This document shows positions 49,532 through 60,071 of a stretch of DNA of 64,000 nucleotides, piece by piece (the stretch's first letter is position 1; every line of letters begins with the position of its first letter). Position numbers and translations under genes: made by a program. The notes beneath the pieces are model-generated. The model was not told the origin of the DNA and searched no databases. It saw nothing but the letters and a program-made list of their open reading frames with translations. Origin of the DNA: an uncultured Rhodoblastus sp. (GTDB taxonomy: Bacteria > Pseudomonadota > Alphaproteobacteria > Rhizobiales > Beijerinckiaceae); NCBI RefSeq assembly GCF_903903185.1, contig NZ_CAIUXT010000136.1, positions 1-64,000 on the forward strand, in the 5' to 3' direction.

Positions 49532-50029
49532 TCAGTCGGAGCAGTCGCAGGACGGTCCGCTGACATGCTGGGTCAGGACGAAAAACTCGACACGCCGGTT
49601 CCGGCGCATGTCGGCCTCGTTTTGCGGATTGAGCACGAGGCGATGGGCCGACCCCATGCCGAAGGCCTCAAGGCGCAACATATATAGCACCGATCGGGCG
49701 CCGGCCTTTCGGACCAGTTCCGCCTCGAACAGCTTCTTGCCCGATTGCGCGCGCTTGACGCTGACGTCCATCTCGAAAGCCGCCCGCTGCGGCGGATTTA
49801 CGCGCAGCGCGACATCGGCGTGACCGAGAACCACTACGGCGCGCGCCGCCGGATGCCTCGAAAGGCTTGCGAAAACCTGCCCCGCCAGATCGCGGATCTG
49901 CGCCGTCTGCTGCGCCGACAGGCCGGCGACCTCAGTCGCATATTCCGGAAAGTCGGACACGATGCAGTCGGGCCTGCGGGTTGCGACATAAGCGGCGCTG
50001 AGATTGCGCAGGATCGGCAGCGACAGCAT
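49532..50029 (-). CDS. OmpA/MotB-like domain protein without signal peptide
   Basis: The 165-residue protein has an OmpA-like peptidoglycan-binding fold by eye: VVVLGHADVALRV, then FEMDVSVKRAQSGKKLF, FGMGSAHRLVLNPQNEADMRRNRRVEFFVL, which carries the Arg and Asn/Asp pattern of the family. The C-terminus has a CDC motif (SGPSCDCSD). No N-terminal signal or transmembrane helix is seen, which is unusual because the fold normally works in the periplasm. It is divergent from a HExxH protein gene, with 105 bases between them, and both are unlike the housekeeping neighbours ssb and gyrA. Confidence 0.68.
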   Translation of the reverse strand: MLSLPILRNLSAAYVATRRPDCIVSDFPEYATEVAGLSAQQTAQIRDLAGQVFASLSRHPAARAVVVLGHADVALRVNPPQRAAFEMDVSVKRAQSGKKLFEAELVRKAGARSVLYMLRLEAFGMGSAHRLVLNPQNEADMRRNRRVEFFVLTQHVSGPSCDCSD

Positions 50030-50134
50030 CGAAAGGCCCGTGTCAAAACCCGGCTATGGAGCTTTCAAAGCTCGGACTTTTCTGCCAGATTGTCAATCGA
50101 CGCTGGAAGCCTCGCCCTTTAGCAGAGACGCCCG

Positions 50135-50737
50135 ATGGCCAACGTGACGATCCACATCGCCGACGTTTTCGAACTGACGAAAATCGGATCCTTCGCCAAG
50201 GATCTCACAACTCGGGTGAAGGCGCTTTTCGACGATTGCATCGCCTTTGCCAACAAAAGCGTCAAGCAAGGCGACCCGCCGCACACGTCGAATATCGTCA
50301 TCGCCACTGCCGCCAAACCCGCGCCCGGCAAGCTGGACTTTCTGGTCTATCTGCTGCCGATCGAATTTCACTCGATCGCCGGCGCGCCGACCAAGGACAA
50401 CCTTCTCGCCGACCATTGGGGATTTACCAAACTCGAACAAGGCGGAGCGGCGGCCAAGTGCGAGATCATCGCCAAGCTCACCCAGGGCGACGTGATCGGG
50501 TCGCTCGTGATCCACGAAATGCTGCATTACAAGACCGCGAAGGGCAATAACGCGCTGCACCCAACCGGAGGCCTCGGCGCCGCGACAGTCGACGCGGCTT
50601 CGCAGCTCAACGACGCCAACCGGCGCGACATTGCCGCCAACCTGAAAAAAGAAATCACGCCCTGGCTCGACGGATGGGATATTTGCGCCGGAGCGAAGGC
50701 GCGCCGCGATGGCGGCGATCCCTTGTGGAATCTCTAG
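50135..50737 (+). CDS. HExxH zinc-metallopeptidase-like protein
   Basis: The 200-residue protein has no signal peptide. Residues 125-131 read VIHEMLH, the zincin helix with His127, Glu128 and His131; a further His142 (ALHPTGG) may be the third ligand. The N-terminal half is alpha/beta with TIHIADVFELTK at the start. I do not recognise the family; secreted-effector-type zincins are one possibility, and a metal-binding non-peptidase is another. It converges with ssb, 19 bases away, and is divergent from the OmpA-like gene. Confidence 0.62.
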   Translation: MANVTIHIADVFELTKIGSFAKDLTTRVKALFDDCIAFANKSVKQGDPPHTSNIVIATAAKPAPGKLDFLVYLLPIEFHSIAGAPTKDNLLADHWGFTKLEQGGAAAKCEIIAKLTQGDVIGSLVIHEMLHYKTAKGNNALHPTGGLGAATVDAASQLNDANRRDIAANLKKEITPWLDGWDICAGAKARRDGGDPLWNL

Positions 50738-50756
50738 AGTTTTCCTTCGAATCCGT

Positions 50757-51263
50757 TCAGAATGGAATATCGTCGTCGATTGTGTCCGAGGCCCTTCCGC
50801 CGCCGGCGCCTTCGTTGCGCTCCGAGGGTCCGCGCTCCAGTGGCGATTGCCGGCCAAAGGAACCGCCGCCCGACGAGGCGCCGCCGAAGCCGGCGTCGTC
50901 GCCGCGCGCGCCGCGCCCGTCGAGCAGCACCAACTCGCCGCGGAATTTGGTCAGCACGACGTCGGTGGCTTTGCGCTGGTGGCCTTCCTTGTCGGTGAAT
51001 TCGCGCGTCTGCAATTGCCCCTCGATATAGACCTTGGCGCCCTTCTTGAGGTATTGCTCCGCGACTTTCCCCAAATTCTCGTTGAAAATCGAAATATTAT
51101 GCCATTCGGTGCGTTCCTTGCGCTCGCCGGTGGCCTTGTCGCGCCAGCTGTCGGTGGTGGCGACCGAAAAGGACACCACCGCGTCGCCCGATGGGAAACG
51201 CCGGACCTCCGGATCGCGGCCGAGATTGCCGATCAAAATGACTTTATTGACGCTTCCCGCCAT
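50757..51263 (-). CDS. ssb: Single-strand DNA-binding protein
   Basis: Ssb protects single-stranded DNA and recruits replication and repair partners. The 168-residue protein has an OB fold (AGSVNKVILIGNLGRDPEVRRF; TEWHNISIFNENLGKVAEQYLKKG), a Gly/Ser-rich linker and the acidic tip DTIDDDIPF that binds HolC and other partners. The ATG at 51263 gives the family start. It is divergent from uvrA, and an SOS box lies between them, so ssb may be LexA-regulated as in other alphaproteobacteria. Confidence 0.96.
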   Translation of the reverse strand: MAGSVNKVILIGNLGRDPEVRRFPSGDAVVSFSVATTDSWRDKATGERKERTEWHNISIFNENLGKVAEQYLKKGAKVYIEGQLQTREFTDKEGHQRKATDVVLTKFRGELVLLDGRGARGDDAGFGGASSGGGSFGRQSPLERGPSERNEGAGGGRASDTIDDDIPF

Positions 51264-51348
51264 GGTTTCCTCGCTACCTGTCCGTTTCGCGGCCTCAAGG
51301 CCATTCGCCGTATGCCGATTGGGCGCTTGCCCATTGGACGAACCGGCC

Positions 51349-51475
51349 ATGAACCGCCCTCGTCCTTCGAGACGCGCCTAGCGGCGCTCCTCAGGATGGG
51401 GGCTACTCGACTGATTTCATTTATCCTCTCATGTCAGGAAGCGATGCGAAGCATCGCGTCTCCAAGTACGAGGGG
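51349..51475. repeat. Dispersed two-part palindromic repeat, copy C
   Basis: Part one starts gaaccgccctcgtccttcga and ends near ctgatttcat at 51420, matching copy B. Part two (51425-51475) has the hairpin gcgatgc-gaa-gcatcgc at 51441-51457 and ends gtctccaagtacgagggg, resembling part two of copy A with a different stem. It lies between ssb and uvrA. Confidence 0.75.
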
Positions 51476-51592
51476 ATCAACGCGCGATCTTTCAGCGCCT
51501 GCGGGCGCATCCTATACGCCCGCGAAACCGGCCGCGCGTCCTTATCCGTCCTTATCCACAGCGTCGCGGGCCCGATCCCCGGCGCCGAGGAT

Positions 51593-51607
51593 GTTCTATT
51601 TATGTTC
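51593..51607. promoter_or_regulatory. LexA (SOS) box between ssb and uvrA
   Basis: gttc-tatttat-gttc is an exact match to the alphaproteobacterial SOS box GTTC-N7-GTTC. It lies 135 bases upstream of the uvrA start and 330 bases upstream of ssb, and overlaps the probable promoter. uvrA and ssb are classic SOS genes, and lexA in this window has the same box. Confidence 0.85.
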
Positions 51608-51741
51608 TAGCTTATCGGCGCGAATCGTGCAAGCCTGCGAAAGGTGGAAATTTTGGCCGCTGACGTTAAATACAGGCGGACGTCGCCCCCGCCGGACCGG
51701 CCGCGCGCTTTTGGCGGCCCCGCGTTTTTTGGAATGTGACC

Positions 51742-54700
51742 ATGGATTCAGCCAAGCCCGTAGCCAAAAAGAATCCCCCCAAAAAGCCCGCGCCGAAGAA
51801 ATCCCTGTTGAAAAAGCCCGCCAAAGGCCCCTCCCCGCAAAAGCCGGCGCAAAGCGCCGAAACCTCCGAACAGGCGGCGTTTCGCATCGGCGAGGGCCGT
51901 GTGATTTCGCTGCGCGGCGCCCGGGAACATAATCTCAAGAATGTCGATCTCACCATTCCGCGCGACAAGCTGGTGGTGTTCACAGGCCTGTCCGGCTCGG
52001 GCAAATCCTCGCTCGCCTTCGACACCATTTATGCCGAGGGCCAGCGGCGCTATGTCGAGAGCCTGTCCGCCTATGCGCGGCAGTTTCTCGAAATGATGCA
52101 AAAGCCCGACGTCGATCATATCGACGGCCTGTCGCCGGCCATTTCGATCGAACAGAAGACCACGTCGAAAAACCCGCGCTCGACCGTCGGCACCGTCACC
52201 GAAATCAACGATTACATGCGCCTGCTCTGGGCGCGCGTCGGCATTCCCTATTCGCCCGCCACCGGCCTGCCGATCGAGAGCCAGACGGTGAGCCAGATGG
52301 TCGATCGGGTGCTGGCCCTGCCCGAGCGCACGCGGCTGTTTCTGCTCGCCCCGGTGGTGCGCGGCCGAAAGGGCGAATATCGCAAGGAAATCGCGGAATT
52401 TCTCAAGCGCGGCTTCCAGCGGCTGAAGATCGACGGCCAGTTCTGCGACATCGCCGAGGCGCCGGCGCTCGACAAGAAGCTCAAGCATGACATCGAGGTG
52501 GTGGTCGACCGCATCGTCGTGCGCGCCGATATTTCGGCGCGTCTCGCGGAGAGTTTCGAGACCGCGCTCGATCTCGCCGATGGCTTGGCCATCGTCGAAT
52601 TCGCCGAAGGCGTCCGGGATGGCGATGGCGAAAAAACGGCTTCGCCCGAGCGCATCGTTTTTTCGTCGAAATTCTCCTGCCCGGTCTCCGGGTTTTCGAT
52701 TTCGGAAATCGAACCGCGGCTGTTTTCGTTCAATAATCCCCATGGCGCCTGCCCGAAATGCGGCGGCATCGGCTTCGAGCAGAAGGTCGATCCCGAATTG
52801 ATCGTCCCCAATCCCGAACTGACCCTGCGCAAGGGCGCCATCGCGCCCTGGGCCAAGTCGCCCTCGCCCTATTATGCGCAGACGCTCGAAGCGCTTGGCA
52901 AGGTCTTCAAGTTCCGCATGGAGGACCGCTGGTCGGCGCTTTCCGCCGAGGCGCACAAAGCCATTTTCTATGGTTCCGGCGACCGGGACGTGCTGTTCAC
53001 CTATGCCGACGGGACCCGCGCCTATGAGGTGAGAAAGCCGTTCGAGGGGGTGATCCGCAATCTGGAGCGGCGTTATATCGAGACCGAAAGCGATTGGGCG
53101 CGCGAGGAAATCTCGCGCTACATGTCGGCCAGCCCCTGCGCCGCCTGCAAGGGCTTTCGCCTCAAGCCCGAGGCGCTGGCGGTCAAGATCGACTTTTCCC
53201 ATATCGGCCAAATTTCCGAACTCTCGGTGCGCGAGGCGCAACAATGGTTCGTCGCCCTGCCGCAAAAGCTCGACGCCAAGCGCAACGAGATCTCGGCGCG
53301 CATTTTACGCGAGATCGACGAGAGACTGCGGTTTCTCGTCGATGTCGGGCTCGACTATCTGACGCTGGCGCGCGGTTCGGGGACCCTGTCGGGCGGCGAA
53401 AGCCAGCGCATCCGCCTCGCCTCGCAGATCGGCTCGGGCCTGACCGGGGTTTTGTATGTGCTCGACGAACCCTCCATCGGCCTGCACCAGCGCGATAATT
53501 TCCGCCTGCTCGAAACCTTGCGGCGGCTGCGCGACCTCGGCAATTCGGTGATCGTCGTCGAGCATGACGAGGACGCCATCCTGACCGCCGATTATGTCGT
53601 CGATGTCGGCCCCGGGGCCGGCGTCCATGGCGGCGAAATCGTCGCGCAGGGAACCCCGGCCGACATCATGGCCAATGAAAATTCGCTGACCGGGGCCTAT
53701 CTGACCGGCCGTCTCGCCGTAGCCGCGCCGAAAAAACGCCGGAAACCCGACCCCCGCCGCATGTTGAAGCTGACGGGCGCGCGCGGCAACAATCTGCGCA
53801 ACGTCACGGCGAACTTGCCGCTCGGCCTGTTCACCTGCATCACCGGCGTTTCGGGCGGCGGCAAATCGACGCTGGTGGTCGATACGCTCTACAAGGCGGT
53901 GGCGCGGCGCCTCAATGGCGCGCTGGAGCATCCGGCGCCTTTCGACACGCTCGAAGGGCTGGAGCATATCGACAAGGTCATCGACATCGACCAGTCGCCG
54001 ATCGGCCGCACACCGCGCTCCAATCCCGCCACCTATGTCGGCGCCTTCACGCCGATCCGCGACTGGTTCGCTGGCCTGCCGGAGGCCAAGGCGCGCGGTT
54101 ACGGGCCGGGACGCTTCTCCTTCAACGTCAAGGGCGGACGTTGCGAAGCCTGCCAGGGCGACGGCGTGATCAAGATCGAAATGCATTTTCTGCCCGACGT
54201 CTATGTCACCTGCGACGTCTGCAAGGGCCGGCGCTATGACCGCGAAACGCTGGAAGTGCGCTATCGCGACCGCAGCATCGCCGATGTGCTCGACATGACG
54301 GTCGAAGAGGCCGCCGACCTGTTCAAGGCGGTGCCGTCGATCCGCGACAAGATGCAGACGCTTTCGCGCGTCGGTCTGGGTTATGTAAAAGTCGGCCAGC
54401 AGGCCACGACCCTTTCCGGCGGCGAAGCCCAGCGCGTCAAATTGTCGAAGGAATTGTCGCGGCGCTCGACGGGGCGCACGCTCTATATTCTCGACGAACC
54501 GACTACCGGCTTGCATTTCCACGACGTGAAAAAGCTTCTTGAAGTGCTGCATGAACTGGTCGATCAGGGCAACAGCGTGGTGGTGATCGAGCATAATCTC
54601 GAAGTGGTGAAGACGGCGGACTGGGTGATCGACATGGGGCCGGAAGGCGGCGACGGCGGCGGAACCATTGTCGCCGAAGGACCTCCGGAGGCCATCGTGC

Positions 54701-54780
54701 GCGAACCCGCTTCCTATACAGGACAGTTTTTGAAGGAGGTTCTGCTGCGCCGGCCCGGGTCAAGGGAAGCGGCGGCCTGA
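51742..54780 (+). CDS. uvrA: Excinuclease ABC subunit A
   Basis: UvrA scans for DNA damage and loads UvrB in nucleotide excision repair. The 1012-residue protein begins with a Lys/Pro/Ala-rich extension of about 50 residues, then the two ABC ATPase halves: Walker [10 protein letters not shown] and [12 protein letters not shown] signatures LSGGESQRI and [11 protein letters not shown], and two CxxC zinc modules ([17 protein letters not shown] with CDVCKGRR). Other conserved residues include the [12 protein letters not shown] segment. GTG at 51736 is in frame, but the ATG at 51742 is preferred. An SOS box lies upstream. Confidence 0.97.
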
Positions 54781-55059
54781 GGCCTATGCTGCTTTGCAAA
54801 AATCGCAATGCTGCTTTGCAAAATTTTTGGGTTCCGTCCTGATCCAGGGGCGATCATAGTTCGTTAATCGTTTATAGAGGCGCCGTAAGGTTTGGCCGTT
54901 CCTTCCGAGGTCAACGTACGGGCGTGTTAATCGCTCGTACGCCTCAGCGCCCGCCGGCCCCTCCCCCCGGCGGGCGCTATTTAGCATGATCCCTTCTCCC
55001 CTTGTGGGAGGTGATGCGACGCGGCGGATGACTTTCGGCAGCCACGGCGCGAGGAAGGG
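54781..55059. other. Region after uvrA: direct repeat and strong hairpin
   Basis: A 16-base direct repeat atgctgctttgcaaaa lies at 54786-54801 and 54808-54823, 22 bases apart. A perfect 12-bp stem agcgcccgccgg/ccggcgggcgct at 54944-54976 is followed by atttag, weakly terminator-like, for either strand. A minus-strand frame in this area is probably spurious. Confidence 0.5.
54944..54976. terminator. Strong GC-rich hairpin downstream of uvrA
   Basis: The 12-bp perfect stem has a nine-base pyrimidine loop. It is followed by attt on the plus strand, so it may end the uvrA transcript 160 bases after its stop. The T-tract is weak, so it could also be the 3' end of a small RNA. Confidence 0.4.
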
Positions 55060-55149
55060 CGGGGACTGGATACTCATGGCGCGTTGCGGTTTTCCTTTTT
55101 GGCGACTTTGATCGGGTCGTGATTCGTTTCCTGTCCCCGACTTCCGGGA
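55060..55149. repeat. Left 90-bp inverted repeat of a two-gene cassette
   Basis: Outer end cggggactggatac; inner end gtttcctgtccccgacttccggga. The inner 28 bases match the inverted right copy (57001-57091) at 26 positions, and the outer 14 match exactly. The arm is itself partly palindromic. Confidence 0.75.
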
Positions 55150-55193
55150 TGGATTGGCGCGCACAGAATTTCCTCTACTCTAAAGATCAGGCG

Positions 55194-55892
55194 TCAACGC
55201 GCATTGTTGTCAAGTACGGATTGGAAGAATTGGTCAACCAGAGTCCCGTCGTCCCCGTGCGCGCCAAAAGAACTCATCCAGCCGCTTTGCCCAGCATGGA
55301 CGCCGTCGAGAATTGTCACGTGCAGATCCCGTTCATGGTCTTTAGACGGGTCGTAGCTGATGACGCTTGCCGAGCAGCGCTCTCCTAAATCCAACCCTGT
55401 CGCAGCATCAATCGAACCTATTCTTGCCGTCGGGAACAACCGTAGTGTATCGTTCCCGATTTTTTTGAAATTAACGATTGTTCCTTTTGGCACCAGCGGG
55501 TGGAGGCTAAGTAATAGAATATATCCTACAAAATTTTTTGTTGGAATATGTACCTTCGCAATCGGAAGCCCCATTGCACCCTTGTTGTCTTCAACAGGAT
55601 TATAAGTGATGACTTCTATAACAACAGGCAAATCGTGCTGAAAGGTCTGGCATCCGGGCGGATGCTCGTATTTAAGCCAATCCCGGTACCGGTCCGCAGT
55701 GTCGCATACGGTCGCCGTATTGACGCCCCCTCCATCATCACCAAGAAATGCTTTGGTTCCAGGTGCGGGCTGTTTCCATACTGGAGCAGCTTTCTCGGAG
55801 CCGCTTGCGATTGCGGTAAAGGTTATAGTTGCTGCGATTGCGCCAACCCAAAGCCACCGTCCGGCGCTAGTAGTCATCGTCAGCGAAGCCAT
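55194..55892 (-). CDS. Secreted protein of unknown function in AT-rich cassette
   Basis: The 232-residue protein has a signal peptide (RWLWVGAIAATITFTAIASG) and a mature domain with four cysteines (CDTADRYRDWLKY, CQTF, ERCSA) suited to disulfides. It has no family that I know. The start is ATG 55892, or ATG 55877, which gives a better signal peptide. The upstream gene's stop overlaps its start, so the two are co-translated. GC is well below the host average. Confidence 0.6.
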   Translation of the reverse strand: MASLTMTTSAGRWLWVGAIAATITFTAIASGSEKAAPVWKQPAPGTKAFLGDDGGGVNTATVCDTADRYRDWLKYEHPPGCQTFQHDLPVVIEVITYNPVEDNKGAMGLPIAKVHIPTKNFVGYILLLSLHPLVPKGTIVNFKKIGNDTLRLFPTARIGSIDAATGLDLGERCSASVISYDPSKDHERDLHVTILDGVHAGQSGWMSSFGAHGDDGTLVDQFFQSVLDNNAR

Positions 55893-56964
55893 CGATTTGA
55901 GTTCCGTTCGGATTCTGAGCGCAAAAAAACTTTGCGTGCCAATACGTCAAACGATGTGTCGCTCGCGGGTTCAAATACAACCATGAAGGCATAGCATATT
56001 TGATGCTTGAGTCCGCATCTTTTGGCCAAACGTTAACAAAAAAAATCGCCGATAAGAGACGCGAGGCATCGCCAATGGTCACATCGGCTGGGACCTTTTT
56101 AGCAATGGAAGTAAGAGGCGTTGAGTCGTGGGAAAATTGCATGAAGGCGCGGCGAGCAAGCGAGCGAGTAAAAGCGGTATCAATCCCGGCGAAATCGTTG
56201 TAAATTGAAAGGTAGTTGAACCAAGGATGCACCACCAATATTAGTATAAACGGATTATTTCGGGTGAATTGCTTAGCGTCGCGAAAGGGGTAGTGAACGT
56301 TCGCTTTTGCGAGGCGATATGGCTCAACGTTGCGACCAATGATCGTCACAGGTTTCACGGAATCCAGTCGGATCACCATCGGACCTTTCCTCACCATGCC
56401 TTTCTGTCTGAGTTCATTGGCAATATCCGGCGCCGTTTCGATCAGATCACTAAATATATCAAAGGATAGGTCCCACGACTCCTCGATAAGAACCTGCTCG
56501 TCGGGAATTTCTTTTTCTAATCGTTCCTTCAAACGTTGAGCCAATCTCCCGTTGGAGCCAAAAGCTTTGATGTCAAAATACATGCTGCCAAATTCGATCC
56601 GACCGTCGAGGGTCGATCCCTCGGTGGCCAAAACGTCGCTTGAGGTCATGGCGACTTCCGTTGTGAACTTCAGAGGACACTGGGCCAGCCAATCATACGC
56701 AGCGAGTTCTGCAAAAGCGCCATATGTATCTCGTGAGATCAGGCGGCGAATTAAATTTCGGGCATTAGATTTCGACGTGGAGTTGCTCTTTAGCAAATCT
56801 CCGATCGCTCGGGCAATCAGGCGACAATGAGCGTCACAGTTGGCGAGAGAAAACGCGTCGGCATCCAGGGCAGCATCCGGGATGTCTGAAGCAAGTTTCA
56901 TGTCGGCGATTGCGGCGCTTCCCGCAGCAAGTTTTTTGATCCATTCATGCTTCTTAGTATTCAC
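55867..56964 (-). CDS. Uncharacterised protein with PD-(D/E)XK-like motif in AT-rich cassette
   Basis: The 365-residue soluble protein lacks a signal peptide. In the first half, LDGRIEFGSMYFDIKAFGS resembles the core of a PD-(D/E)XK nuclease: an Asp, a strand, then D-x-K, with an upstream helix (DTYGAFAELAAYDWL) that could supply the conserved Glu. The second half is helical and strand-rich (NNPFILILVVHPWFNYLSIYND) with no known match. It overlaps the secreted-protein gene by 26 bases. A restriction-like or other defence role is a guess; membership of the nuclease superfamily is by eye. Confidence 0.5.
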   Translation of the reverse strand: MNTKKHEWIKKLAAGSAAIADMKLASDIPDAALDADAFSLANCDAHCRLIARAIGDLLKSNSTSKSNARNLIRRLISRDTYGAFAELAAYDWLAQCPLKFTTEVAMTSSDVLATEGSTLDGRIEFGSMYFDIKAFGSNGRLAQRLKERLEKEIPDEQVLIEESWDLSFDIFSDLIETAPDIANELRQKGMVRKGPMVIRLDSVKPVTIIGRNVEPYRLAKANVHYPFRDAKQFTRNNPFILILVVHPWFNYLSIYNDFAGIDTAFTRSLARRAFMQFSHDSTPLTSIAKKVPADVTIGDASRLLSAIFFVNVWPKDADSSIKYAMPSWLYLNPRATHRLTYWHAKFFCAQNPNGTQIDGFADDDY

Positions 56965-57000
56965 GATGATCGGAGCCTCGAAATCGTCTAGCTAAAACCG

Positions 57001-57091
57001 TCCCGGAAGTCGGGGACTGAAAACGAATTGCGACGCAGCGACGGGCCGACGCGACAAGAATGGATGCCGCGCAATTCGTATCCAGTCCCCG
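57001..57091. repeat. Right 91-bp inverted repeat of a two-gene cassette
   Basis: Inner end tcccggaagtcggggac; outer end gtatccagtccccg. The arm is itself a palindrome: the 22-mer starting at 57011 pairs with the one ending at 57091 (19 of 22 positions). It is the inverted counterpart of 55060-55149. Confidence 0.75.
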
Positions 57092-57121
57092 AGTACCTCG
57101 CATTGTAGCTATGGCGCGCCA

Positions 57122-57586
57122 TCACGCCGCGATCAGCACCGCGCCGACCGGGCGCTTTTCCCCCAGCAGGATATTATAGGTCTGGCAGGCGGCGGCGGTG
57201 CTCATCGGGTCGCAGCCGATGCCGAGCGCCCGCAGACGCTGGCGCAGAGCCGGCGGAACCGGCAGCAGCATTGCGCCGCATCCAAACAGCAATAAATCGA
57301 CGCTGCCGCGCGGCAAGGCGAACAAAGGCGCGAGCGACGCCTCGTCCACTGCTGCGAAAGTTTCGGGCGCATAGGCGTGGATGCCGTCCGGCAGCGCCAG
57401 CAGCGAGCCGCGATGGGTCATGCCGGCGAACTGGAAGCCGCCGGCGGCGATGCCGTCGATCGGGTGAAGGCCAGGGGTAAAGCCCTCGTATCTGCGCCCT
57501 TCCGCCAATTCAGGCGCCCGAAAGCGGCCGCGCGCCGGATTTGCCGCCCAGCCCCGTGACTTCGTCGGAGGCGGCGCGGTTTTCAT
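57122..57586 (-). CDS. Mth938-like (DUF498/NDUFAF3-type) protein
   Basis: The 154-residue protein has the Mth938 core: GFQFAGMTHRGSLLALPDGI, a strand LPRGSVDLLLFGCG, a helix PALRQRLRALGIGCDPMSTAAACQTYNIL and the end GAVLIAA. The mitochondrial relative NDUFAF3 assists complex I assembly; the bacterial role is not settled. It lies after secF in many alphaproteobacteria. The ATG at 57586 lies inside secF, an overlap of 77 bases, which is unusually long; a shorter start is possible. The left end of this gene is 30 bases from the right repeat of the cassette. Confidence 0.85.
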   Translation of the reverse strand: MKTAPPPTKSRGWAANPARGRFRAPELAEGRRYEGFTPGLHPIDGIAAGGFQFAGMTHRGSLLALPDGIHAYAPETFAAVDEASLAPLFALPRGSVDLLLFGCGAMLLPVPPALRQRLRALGIGCDPMSTAAACQTYNILLGEKRPVGAVLIAA

Positions 57587-58475
57587 TGCGCAGGCCGAGA
57601 TAGATCAAGGTCGGCGAGCAGATGAAAATCGAGGAATAAGTGGCGACGAATATGCCCCACATCATCGCCAGCGAGAACGAGCGGATCACCTGACCGCCAA
57701 AGATCACCAGCGACAGCAGCGCCAGGAAAACCGTGGTCGCGGTCATCAGGGTGCGCGGCAGCACGGCGTTGATCGACGTATCGATGAGCTGATCGGTCGG
57801 CATTTTCTTGAACTTGCGCATATTTTCGCGGATGCGGTCGAGCACCACCACGGTTTCGTTGAGCGAATAGCCGACGATGGTCAGGATCGCCGCGATCGAC
57901 GTGGTGTTGAACTCCAATTGGGTGATCGAGAAAAAGCCGACCGTCAGCAGCAAATCGTGCATCGTGGCGATGATCGCGCCAATGGCGAATTGCCATTCGA
58001 AGCGGAACCACAGATAGGCCAGCACCGCCAGAATCGACAGCACCACGCCGAGCGTGCCGGACTGCACCAGTTCGTTGGAGACGCGCGGGCCGACCACTTC
58101 GACGCGGCGGAAATCGTAGGACTCGCCGAGCGCCTTGCGGACCTTTTCCACCGCCGCCTGCTGCGCCACGTCGCCGCCCGGCTGCATGCCGAAGCGGATC
58201 GAGGCGTCGGCCTGCGAGCCAAAGCCCTGCACTTCGAGATCGCCGAGCCCGAGGTGGTCGGACAGGTCGCGGATGTAGGAGAGATCGGCGATGCCGGATT
58301 TCGCCTGCACTTCGAGCAGCGTGCCGCCGGAAAAATCGATGCCGAAATTCATGCCCACGGTCAGGAAAAGGATCACCGAAACGATCGAGAGCACCGCCGA
58401 AAACGGATAGGACACGCGCCGGAAGCGCATGAACGGGAACTTGGTGTTTTCGGGCGCCAGGCGCAAAAGCTTCAT
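57510..58475 (-). CDS. secF: Protein translocase subunit SecF
   Basis: SecF, with SecD, pulls exported proteins out of the SecYEG channel using the proton motive force. The 321-residue protein has six transmembrane helices, with the first periplasmic domain containing the SecF motif FGIDFSGGTLLEV, and the C-terminal half having GYSLNETVVVLDRIREN, a conserved SecD/F proton-path element. It starts 16 bases after secD. Its 3' end overlaps the Mth938-like gene. Confidence 0.96.
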   Translation of the reverse strand: MKLLRLAPENTKFPFMRFRRVSYPFSAVLSIVSVILFLTVGMNFGIDFSGGTLLEVQAKSGIADLSYIRDLSDHLGLGDLEVQGFGSQADASIRFGMQPGGDVAQQAAVEKVRKALGESYDFRRVEVVGPRVSNELVQSGTLGVVLSILAVLAYLWFRFEWQFAIGAIIATMHDLLLTVGFFSITQLEFNTTSIAAILTIVGYSLNETVVVLDRIRENMRKFKKMPTDQLIDTSINAVLPRTLMTATTVFLALLSLVIFGGQVIRSFSLAMMWGIFVATYSSIFICSPTLIYLGLRNENRAASDEVTGLGGKSGARPLSGA

Positions 58476-58490
58476 GGCAAAAGGTCCTGA

Positions 58491-60071
58491 TCAGATCGGA
58501 AGCTTGGTCGGGCGGGCGTAGCGATACCAAAGGGCGATCATCATCCGCGTCATGGTGACGGCGGTGACGATGGTGGTCAGAATGCCGAGCGCCAGCGACA
58601 CGGCGAAGCCGCGCACCGGACCGGCGCCGAGAAAGTAGAGAATCGCCGCCACCACGAACATCGTCACGTTGGAATCGACGATTGTTGCGAAGGCGCGGTT
58701 GAAGCCCGCGTCGAGCGCCGAAACAATCGAGCGGCCGGCATGGGATTCCTCGCGGATGCGCTCGTAGATCAACACGTTGGAATCCACCGCCATGCCGATG
58801 GTCAGCACGATTCCGGCGATGCCGGGCAGGGTCAGGGTGGCGCGCAGCAGCACCAGCGCGGCGAAGATGAACGAAATATGGATCAGCAGCGCGACATTGG
58901 CGAAGATTCCAAACACGCCATAGGTCATCAGCATATAGGCGACCACCAGCGCCGCCGCCCAATAGGCCGCCTTCTTGCCGGCGTCGATCGAATCCTGGCC
59001 TAGGCCGGGGCCGACGGTGCGCTCCTCGACAATGGTCAGCTTGGCCGGCAGCGCGCCGGCGCGCAGCAGGATGGCGAGATTATTGGCCTGTTCGACGGTG
59101 AAGCGGCCGGAAATCTGGCCCGAGCCGCCGGTGATCGGCCCGAGGATGCGCGGCGCCGAAATCACCTTGTTGTCGAGCACGATGGCGAAGGGCCGCCCGA
59201 CATTGGCCGAGGTCGCCTGCCCGAATTGCTGGCCGCCGCGAATGTTGAAGCGGAAATTGACCACCGGCTCGCCATTGCGCGAATCGAACCCCGGCGTGGC
59301 GTCGGTCAGATCCTCGCCCTGCACCATCACCTGTTTTTCGACCGGCAATCTGCCGGGCTGGTCGGTCTGCTCCAGCTGGTCGACATCGCCCGGATTGGCG
59401 CCGGGGTCGGCGACGAGGCGGAACTCCAGCTTGGCCGTGGTGCCGACGATTTCCTTGAGCCGGTTGGTGTCTTGCAGGCCAGGCACTTCGACCAGCACGC
59501 GGTCGGCGCCCTGGCGCTGGATGTTCGGCTCGGTGGTGCCGAGGCCGTTGACGCGCCGGTTGAGTACTTCGATGGTCTGTTCGACCGCGCGCTTGACCTT
59601 GTTGTCGATGGCGGCGTCGGAAATGTTGAGCTTCAGCAGCCCGTCCTCGCCCTCGACGATGTCGAGCCCCGAACCGGGGCCGGCGCTGGAAAGCGGCACC
59701 AGCGCGGCGAGTTTGGGCAGGACGCGGGCGCGGTCGGCGGCGTCGGGAATGCGCACCTGCACGCCGCGCGCGTTGATGCCGATGCCGCCGGAAATGCCGA
59801 TCTTTTCCTCGCGCAGCAGCCGGCGCAGATCGTCGCGCAGATTGCCGACCATGCTGCGGATCACGTCGGCGCGATCCACCTCATAGAGCAGATGCGCGCC
59901 GCCCTGCAGATCGAGGCCGAGCACGATGCCATTGGGCGGCAGCCAGGACGGCAGATGGGCGGCGAGCGCGGCGCGGTTCTGCGGCCCGATCATGCTGGGA
60001 AGGCAGATCAGGAACGCAATCAGCGACGCGGCCAGCGTGAAGGCGATTTTCCAGGGAGCGAAGCGCAGCAT
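58491..60071 (-). CDS. secD: Protein translocase subunit SecD
   Basis: The 526-residue protein has six transmembrane helices and a large periplasmic P1 domain. Motifs: GLDLQGGAHLLYEVD near the start and the C-terminal half GMAVDSNVLIYERIREE, both SecD hallmarks. yajC lies 33 bases upstream, giving the classic yajC-secD-secF order. The start ATG is at 60071. Confidence 0.97.
   Translation of the reverse strand: MLRFAPWKIAFTLAASLIAFLICLPSMIGPQNRAALAAHLPSWLPPNGIVLGLDLQGGAHLLYEVDRADVIRSMVGNLRDDLRRLLREEKIGISGGIGINARGVQVRIPDAADRARVLPKLAALVPLSSAGPGSGLDIVEGEDGLLKLNISDAAIDNKVKRAVEQTIEVLNRRVNGLGTTEPNIQRQGADRVLVEVPGLQDTNRLKEIVGTTAKLEFRLVADPGANPGDVDQLEQTDQPGRLPVEKQVMVQGEDLTDATPGFDSRNGEPVVNFRFNIRGGQQFGQATSANVGRPFAIVLDNKVISAPRILGPITGGSGQISGRFTVEQANNLAILLRAGALPAKLTIVEERTVGPGLGQDSIDAGKKAAYWAAALVVAYMLMTYGVFGIFANVALLIHISFIFAALVLLRATLTLPGIAGIVLTIGMAVDSNVLIYERIREESHAGRSIVSALDAGFNRAFATIVDSNVTMFVVAAILYFLGAGPVRGFAVSLALGILTTIVTAVTMTRMMIALWYRYARPTKLPI

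Follow-up and report, generated by a model that had tools for sequence, protein, structure and literature searches.

Results

The locus between uvrA and DUF498

The window analyzed here is a stretch of 64,000 nucleotides from an uncultured Rhodoblastus sp. Between uvrA and a DUF498 gene it contains a block made up of a repeat, two genes, and a second repeat (55050..57101). The limits of this block come from a gap comparison, and its outer edges are accurate to within some tens of bases. For uvrA and secF the names were given by eye and in the original prediction; DUF498 was tested by profile. The two genes are overlapping open reading frames on the minus strand that, as originally described, fill the interval between the repeats. 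Gene 1 (55194..55892, minus strand) encodes 232 amino acids with a hydrophobic N-terminal stretch, and judging this stretch by eye its product is likely secreted or anchored. Gene 2 (55867..56964, minus strand) encodes 365 amino acids, among them E, D-G-R, and F-D-I-K residues which resemble a PD-(D/E)XK core.

We found no significant family for either protein in Pfam, NCBIfam, PADLOC, or PHROGs, the profile searches that the original prediction had proposed, and the profile matches of gene 2 were at chance level (E 0.17 or worse). Searches of PDB sequences gave no match to gene 1 at E up to 1, and the best match to gene 2 (E 0.13) was not significant. Single-sequence structure models were unusable, with pLDDT values of 32.5 and 33.1 (the latter for gene 2). 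Among 296 other genomes of the order that were sampled, one homolog of gene 2 was found. It belongs to another family of the order and is 35% identical over 322 columns, with the E, D-G-R, and F-D-I-K residues kept. The PD-(D/E)XK-like motif proposed earlier for gene 2 is retained in one homolog but has no support from profiles, and the assignment of gene 2 as a PD-(D/E)XK nuclease is a motif-level guess. The homolog lies on a 5.3-kb contig which ends 244 bp past the gene, holds a resolvase-like open reading frame (named by eye), and contains no repeat half-site.

A search of its own genome with gene 2 gave one match, the gene itself, and no second copy. The cargo of the window had no match in the 12 repeat-cluster loci that were compared, and scans of genome contigs with the gene 1 and gene 2 proteins found no relative. 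We also considered whether the cargo came from a plasmid or phage and set this origin aside, as the gene 2 protein had no match in plasmids, phages, or viral contigs and neither the gene 1 protein nor the block DNA had a match in plasmids. The low GC content noted for the block held up: it is 0.50 for the cargo compared to 0.63 for the window, and GC3 is 0.50-0.53 for the cargo genes compared to 0.80-0.85 for uvrA and secF.

The two arms

The inverted arms predicted at 55060-55149 and 57001-57091 are present in the sequence. Their outer ends are identical at 14 of 14 bases (row 55060-55073). For the inner ends, the 26 of 28 matches reported is a by-eye count; when aligned, 55116-55155 and 56995-57034 are 85% identical over 40 nt. 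Local alignment of the two arms gave a score of 46, above chance, as none of 500 single-base shuffles scored higher than 32. This score, together with membership in the dispersed family described below, rules out a chance inverted repeat. In the alignment of the family the two arms share 58% identity, and the match between them is confined to the ends.

Each copy of the family has a T-end (CGGGGACTGGAT(A/T)CGAATTGCG) and an inverted A-end (CGGGGACAGGAAACGAATTGCG), and every copy thus has an orientation. The arms do form an inverted pair, but their extents differ from the ~90 bp proposed. Our covariance model (R1) places the left copy at 55050..55147 on the plus strand (core 55060-55139) and the right copy, inverted relative to the left, at 57003..57101 on the minus strand (core 57011-57091). 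The left copy is a degenerate hairpin with 3 model pairs broken and scores 69.0 bits (E 2.5e-16) while the right copy scores 82.0 bits (E 8.8e-20), and these scores are in part a matter of construction because both arms are in the model seed. Since the left copy runs from T-end to A-end and the right copy from A-end to T-end, the A-ends face the cargo. Both the left arm T-end, CGGGGACTGGATACTCATGGCG, and the right arm A-end, CGGGGACTGAAAACGAATTGCG, deviate from the family ends. Both arms have GACTTCCGG at the inner end, a sequence absent from all 13 other aligned copies.

Taken alone, either arm is an imperfect palindrome of ~98 bp, and for this reason the arms are partly direct repeats as well (22 nt, 77%). 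The self-complement score is 46 for the right arm, a good palindrome, and 20 for the degenerate left arm. With 14-base flanks the right arm folds as RNA to -50.2 kcal/mol. No Rfam-type RNA family was found in the arms at E up to 1; two matches that fall outside the insert are sub-threshold. A hairpin downstream of uvrA, also outside the insert (54887..54982, plus strand), is conserved in an alignment with 6 relatives. This hairpin gave a sub-threshold match to the Rfam alphaproteobacterial sRNA ar14 (35.4 bits, gathering score 58.8).

Comparison with same-genus genomes

We fetched loci at the DUF498 gene from ten same-genus genomes and from one genome of another genus of the family. The gap between uvrA and DUF498 is 2342 bp in the window's own genome (ORF ends 54780 and 57122) and 317-381 bp in six of the ten same-genus genomes, measured there between the ends of tblastn matches. 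None of these six gaps holds a repeat half-site or the cargo. The search of relatives for an empty site was therefore successful, with a short gap free of arms and genes in 6 of 10. Elsewhere in the fetched stretches there were four look-alikes of a half-site, with 6 mismatches each. For the remaining four same-genus genomes uvrA falls outside the fetched stretch, and the two of these that were read for open reading frames (L095 and L096) have other genes in that place. The genome from the other genus has uvrA and DUF498 5.1 kb apart, with other genes between them.

By presence and absence in comparison with the six same-genus genomes, the two-gene block is an insertion. The limits of the insert coincide with the repeat on both sides; its exact edges cannot be fixed because the intergenic DNA of the relatives is too diverged. 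No tRNA gene was found in 50000-60000, and a tRNA-linked insertion was ruled out on this basis.

A dispersed family of hairpin repeats

The R1 model was built from 15 copies, both window arms included. It identified 28 places in the window's own genome, which become 27 on 13 contigs once a place on C13 and one on C44 are merged because the contig ends overlap by 124 identical bases. Of the 27 places 24 have E<1e-4 and three have E 0.015-0.13, five score 20.6-35.2 bits, and further copies may be missing from this count because 150 of 7532 first-look candidates were scored. Some of the repeats are located at contig ends (C13/C44, C77, C86, and C234). A pattern search of the same genome returned 25 half-sites at <=3 mismatches, and the pattern read backwards, as a control, returned 0. 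When half-sites at <=2 mismatches were counted in 11 genus genomes, we found 33 in the window's own genome and 1 in the other 10 together, with the backwards-pattern control giving 0 in the former and 1 in one of the others. For the single match in a relative, G299, the model recognizes a complete copy (53.5 bits). The family is nearly absent from the 10 other genomes of the genus. A half-site on a viral contig was taken as chance, with no model copy there at E up to 0.5.

The original prediction held that it would be refuted if the arms turned out to be dispersed repeats in close relatives. They are dispersed within their own genome, at 27 places, and the close relatives are almost without the family. 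As members of a dispersed family, the arms are not dedicated to one cassette, and that idea was ruled out.

By a count made by eye, 16 of 18 stretches form a hairpin fold with both ends paired, and in a C215 copy both sides of the stem carry changes. The mean identity of a copy to the other aligned copies is 0.57-0.76 (15 aligned). Closer copies exist, with 0.94-0.98 identity among C13b, C157, and C215 and between C86b and C45; the closeness of the last two may reflect a segment duplication because both follow copies of one gene end. In all three pairs compared among the 15 aligned copies the nearest copy to each member lies elsewhere, and neither window arm is the nearest copy of the other.

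Several other repeated sequences were observed near the family. An ftsK-like 3' end (by-eye name) is present in three copies (L043 9974-10144, L047 8073-8241, and L160 6417-6587), of which two have a repeat within ~20 bp of the stop codon and one does not. A second motif, GGGATTTGGTAAARTGT (<=3 mismatches), which the window does not contain, follows the A-end of 7 copies at a distance of 27-30 bp; it also occurs just upstream of the C86 transposase gene described below. Its sites in the fetched loci are L042 6698, 8083, and 9794, L044 137, L049 5272, L050 6044 and 6872, and L043 7428. In five clusters another repeat, ~370-430 bp long and 70-75% identical, accompanies the hairpin repeats at a distance of up to ~1 kb (L047 7424-7795, L049 4599-5026, L050 5456-5889, L044 735-1107, and L051 8632-9003). 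A separate repeat of ~585 bp, 76-77% identical, was found at L051 4899-5485 in the C150 cluster, at C256:1089-1675, and at C143:1910-2496.

Neighboring copies and the genes between them

Using tests of clustering and orientation that, like the 7-kb limit, were chosen post hoc once the data had been seen, we found 14 neighbor gaps <=7 kb among the 27 copies, compared to a mean of 0.97 and a maximum of 6 in 20,000 random placements. Seven of the 14 pairs have the same orientation and seven are opposite. All seven opposite pairs face inward (T-A, cargo, A-T), for which the chance is ~1/128 given 7 opposite pairs. When copies below 36 bits are dropped, 22 remain; they have 9 gaps, where the simulations gave a mean of 0.64 and a maximum of 5, and 6 of 6 opposite pairs are inward. 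The 16 copies with >=60 bits have 4 gaps (simulated mean 0.34, maximum 4) and 3 of 3 inward. Thirteen of the 14 gaps are 0.7-6 kb with genes between the copies and one is an 87-bp tandem.

The contents of the inward brackets were read for the window, C13 b-c, C215, C222, C77, and C86, with C247 left out. C13 b-c, which is flanked by inverted ends of 168 bp at 87%, encloses a LuxR-type and a PEP-CTERM gene, and C222 also encloses a PEP-CTERM gene. The C215 bracket holds a HigB-like toxin gene with an HTH open reading frame (the HTH match is below the cut-off), C77 has YARHG and PMT_2 matches, and C86 has two open reading frames that look lipoprotein-like by eye. Same-orientation intervals contain RES with Xre/MbcA/ParS (C13 a-b), radical SAM (C215), GIY-YIG and a PEBP-domain protein (C222), and a symporter with a sub-threshold PEP-CTERM match (C150, where four copies share one orientation). 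GC is below 0.52 in 3 of 12 intervals, C247 again left out, which rules out low GC as a general trait of the bracketed intervals.

We compared interval DNA of four clusters, C215, C222, C86, and C150 (C13, C77, and C247 were outside this comparison), with 10 genus genomes, scoring 27 first-look candidates per genome, and found it mostly without a match. The exceptions are matches of 191 bp in C215 and 56 bp in C222, matches in a single C150 interval that reach 517 bp, and, in C86, an IS-like fragment. The C86 fragment, IS630-like by eye (L043 9443-9747), has matches in G299, G304, and G303. In G303 the flanks of C215 lie ~0.8 Mb apart and those of C150 ~2.1 Mb apart.

A Y1 transposase gene beside one repeat copy

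The genome has four Y1_Tnp matches. One, at C86:12017-12343, scores 40.8 bits against PF01797 (cut-off 23), and its open reading frame has an HVH motif, so that the HUH motif is kept. This reading frame starts 85-115 bp from a repeat copy. Against the NCBI model for REP-associated transposases it scores 63.9, below the cut-off of 80. On the other side of the gene no repeat was found, with nearby matches reaching at most 5.4 bits when filters were off. Another Y1_Tnp match, a partial one, is 2-5 kb away from cluster C222.

Discussion

Origin of the block and its arms

Our data lead us to lean, with modest confidence, towards the reading that the arms are dispersed hairpin repeats, that the genes are an acquired pair, and that the repeats and the block arrived separately or with repeat-rich DNA rather than as a dedicated transposon. 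The Y1 transposase would cut single-stranded repeat hairpins and would place new repeat copies into intergenic sites. The two genes, by presence and absence in the six same-genus genomes, are an acquired accessory pair that entered the gap between uvrA and DUF498. Most likely the repeats are the mobile units, and they either landed on the two sides of the acquired block separately or arrived as part of repeat-rich accessory DNA. Separate arrival is the reading we favor: neither arm is the sister of the other, gene 2 occurs as a single copy, and the gene 2 homolog is without arms. That palindromic repeats flank foreign DNA was one of the two readings offered by the original prediction, and the placement of the arms in a family of 27 places supports it. 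Random independent insertion, however, does not predict 14 gaps <=7 kb or inward orientation in seven of seven opposite pairs.

The other reading offered was a non-autonomous cassette. On this account the inward repeats are the ends of an element moved in trans by a Y1 (RAYT/TIRYT-like) transposase, comparable to a TIRtron whose transposase gene has been replaced by other genes. It fits a repeat-bounded insert whose arms and genes are both missing from the site in 6 of 10 relatives. The inward layout of every opposite neighbor pair (6/6 without the weak copies), the variation of cargo between brackets, the inverted ends of C13 b-c, the scarcity of matches to interval DNA in the genus for four clusters, and the Y1 gene adjoining one repeat copy all point the same way. 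Against it, half of the 14 neighbor pairs, including the four C150 copies, share one orientation, paired arms are not mutual nearest copies, and gene 2 occurs once in its genome. Moreover no arms were seen on the 5.3-kb contig of the gene 2 homolog, which comes from another family of the order, the C86 transposase gene has a repeat on one side only, and low GC is confined to 3 of 12 intervals. Clustering alone can stem from local multiplication, since REPs are concentrated near their tnpA in one organism, according to a passage of PMC8266576. We regard a cassette at this locus as possible but unlikely; what keeps it alive is the inward bias and the coincidence of the insert limits with the repeats. 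The broader proposal, that inward pairs of RAYT/TIRYT-type repeats are in general the ends of non-autonomous cassettes carrying accessory genes around the genome with the help of its Y1 transposase, seems to us somewhat more doubtful still.

The arms might also be recombination joints, that is, intergenic repeats that were already in place and at which foreign DNA with similar repeats was exchanged in by homologous recombination. The presence of GACTTCCGG at the inner ends of both arms and in 0/13 other aligned copies is consistent with this, as is the position of the C215 and C150 clusters where flanks that are distant in G303 meet. However, none of the six short-gap genomes has a repeat half-site in the gap, and the copies measure ~100 bp and have a mean identity to the other aligned copies of 0.57-0.76. 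Copies of that length and identity are poor substrates for homologous recombination, and we consider this route improbable. Pure coincidence of two unrelated hairpins has next to no probability, as both the pattern search and the covariance model put the two arms in one dispersed family and their alignment score exceeds every shuffle. Among these explanations, we retain dispersed repeats beside an acquired pair of genes as the preferred one.

The recurrent inward bracketing of accessory genes makes it testable whether RAYT-type repeats also move cargo. If the brackets are cassettes, then REP-like repeats carry accessory genes, including a toxin-antitoxin-like pair, around the genome. If the repeats move no cargo, what we see here is nonetheless a species-level repeat family which marks the borders of acquired DNA.

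Comparison with known repeat systems

Composite and non-autonomous transposons have inverted ends. Like them, the block has accessory genes enclosed by inverted repeats and occupies a site that is empty in relatives, but it contains no transposase, shows no readable target duplication, has no second copy of gene 2, and has arms that have diverged from each other.

RAYT-type repeats are described, in part of the literature, as miniature, non-autonomous elements. A passage of PMC3733652 reports that the TIRs flanking TIRYT genes carry a GGGGWSAS motif, and passages there and in PMC6006769 describe TIRs as sometimes self-complementary, moderately abundant, and clustered. Our family is like these TIRs of TIRtrons, as so described, in its self-complementarity, moderate copy number, clusters, and the Y1/RAYT-like gene beside one copy, and perhaps in a GGGGWSAS-type end. 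Of the 15 aligned copies 13, including the left arm, have GGGGACAG at the A-end, and it is absent from the right arm and C150; the fit to GGGGWSAS is weak evidence because the motif is short and has 7 matches in the window. Unlike the TIRs in these descriptions, our repeats bracket genes other than the transposase gene, and a repeat was found on just one of the two sides of the C86 transposase gene.

REPINs, as outlined in parts of PMC3116915, are likewise dispersed ~100-bp hairpins made of two inverted short repeats, associated with RAYT-type genes and found in some clusters. In contrast to the hundreds of copies given there, our family occupies 27 places, and in 13 of 14 gaps genes lie between neighbors, over 0.7-6 kb. 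In Thauera sp. MZ1T, exopolysaccharide genes adjoin GTAG-1 REP arrays which were proposed to modulate expression (PMC3733652). That case is similar in that a gene cluster is directly flanked by arrays of palindromic repeats, but the repeats are of the GTAG-1 kind and the passage in question claims no movement. A GTAG tetranucleotide at one end was found in 1 of our 15 aligned copies (C77).

A search of the literature at the level of titles and the beginnings of abstracts, with subscription papers mostly outside its scope, found no account of a RAYT moving cargo bracketed by REPs or TIRs. With GTAG in 1/15 copies and a transposase gene that is not flanked on both sides, the family does not have full membership in either the TIRs or the REPINs. 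The classification that suits the arms best is a new, lineage-specific family of RAYT/TIRYT-linked repeats.
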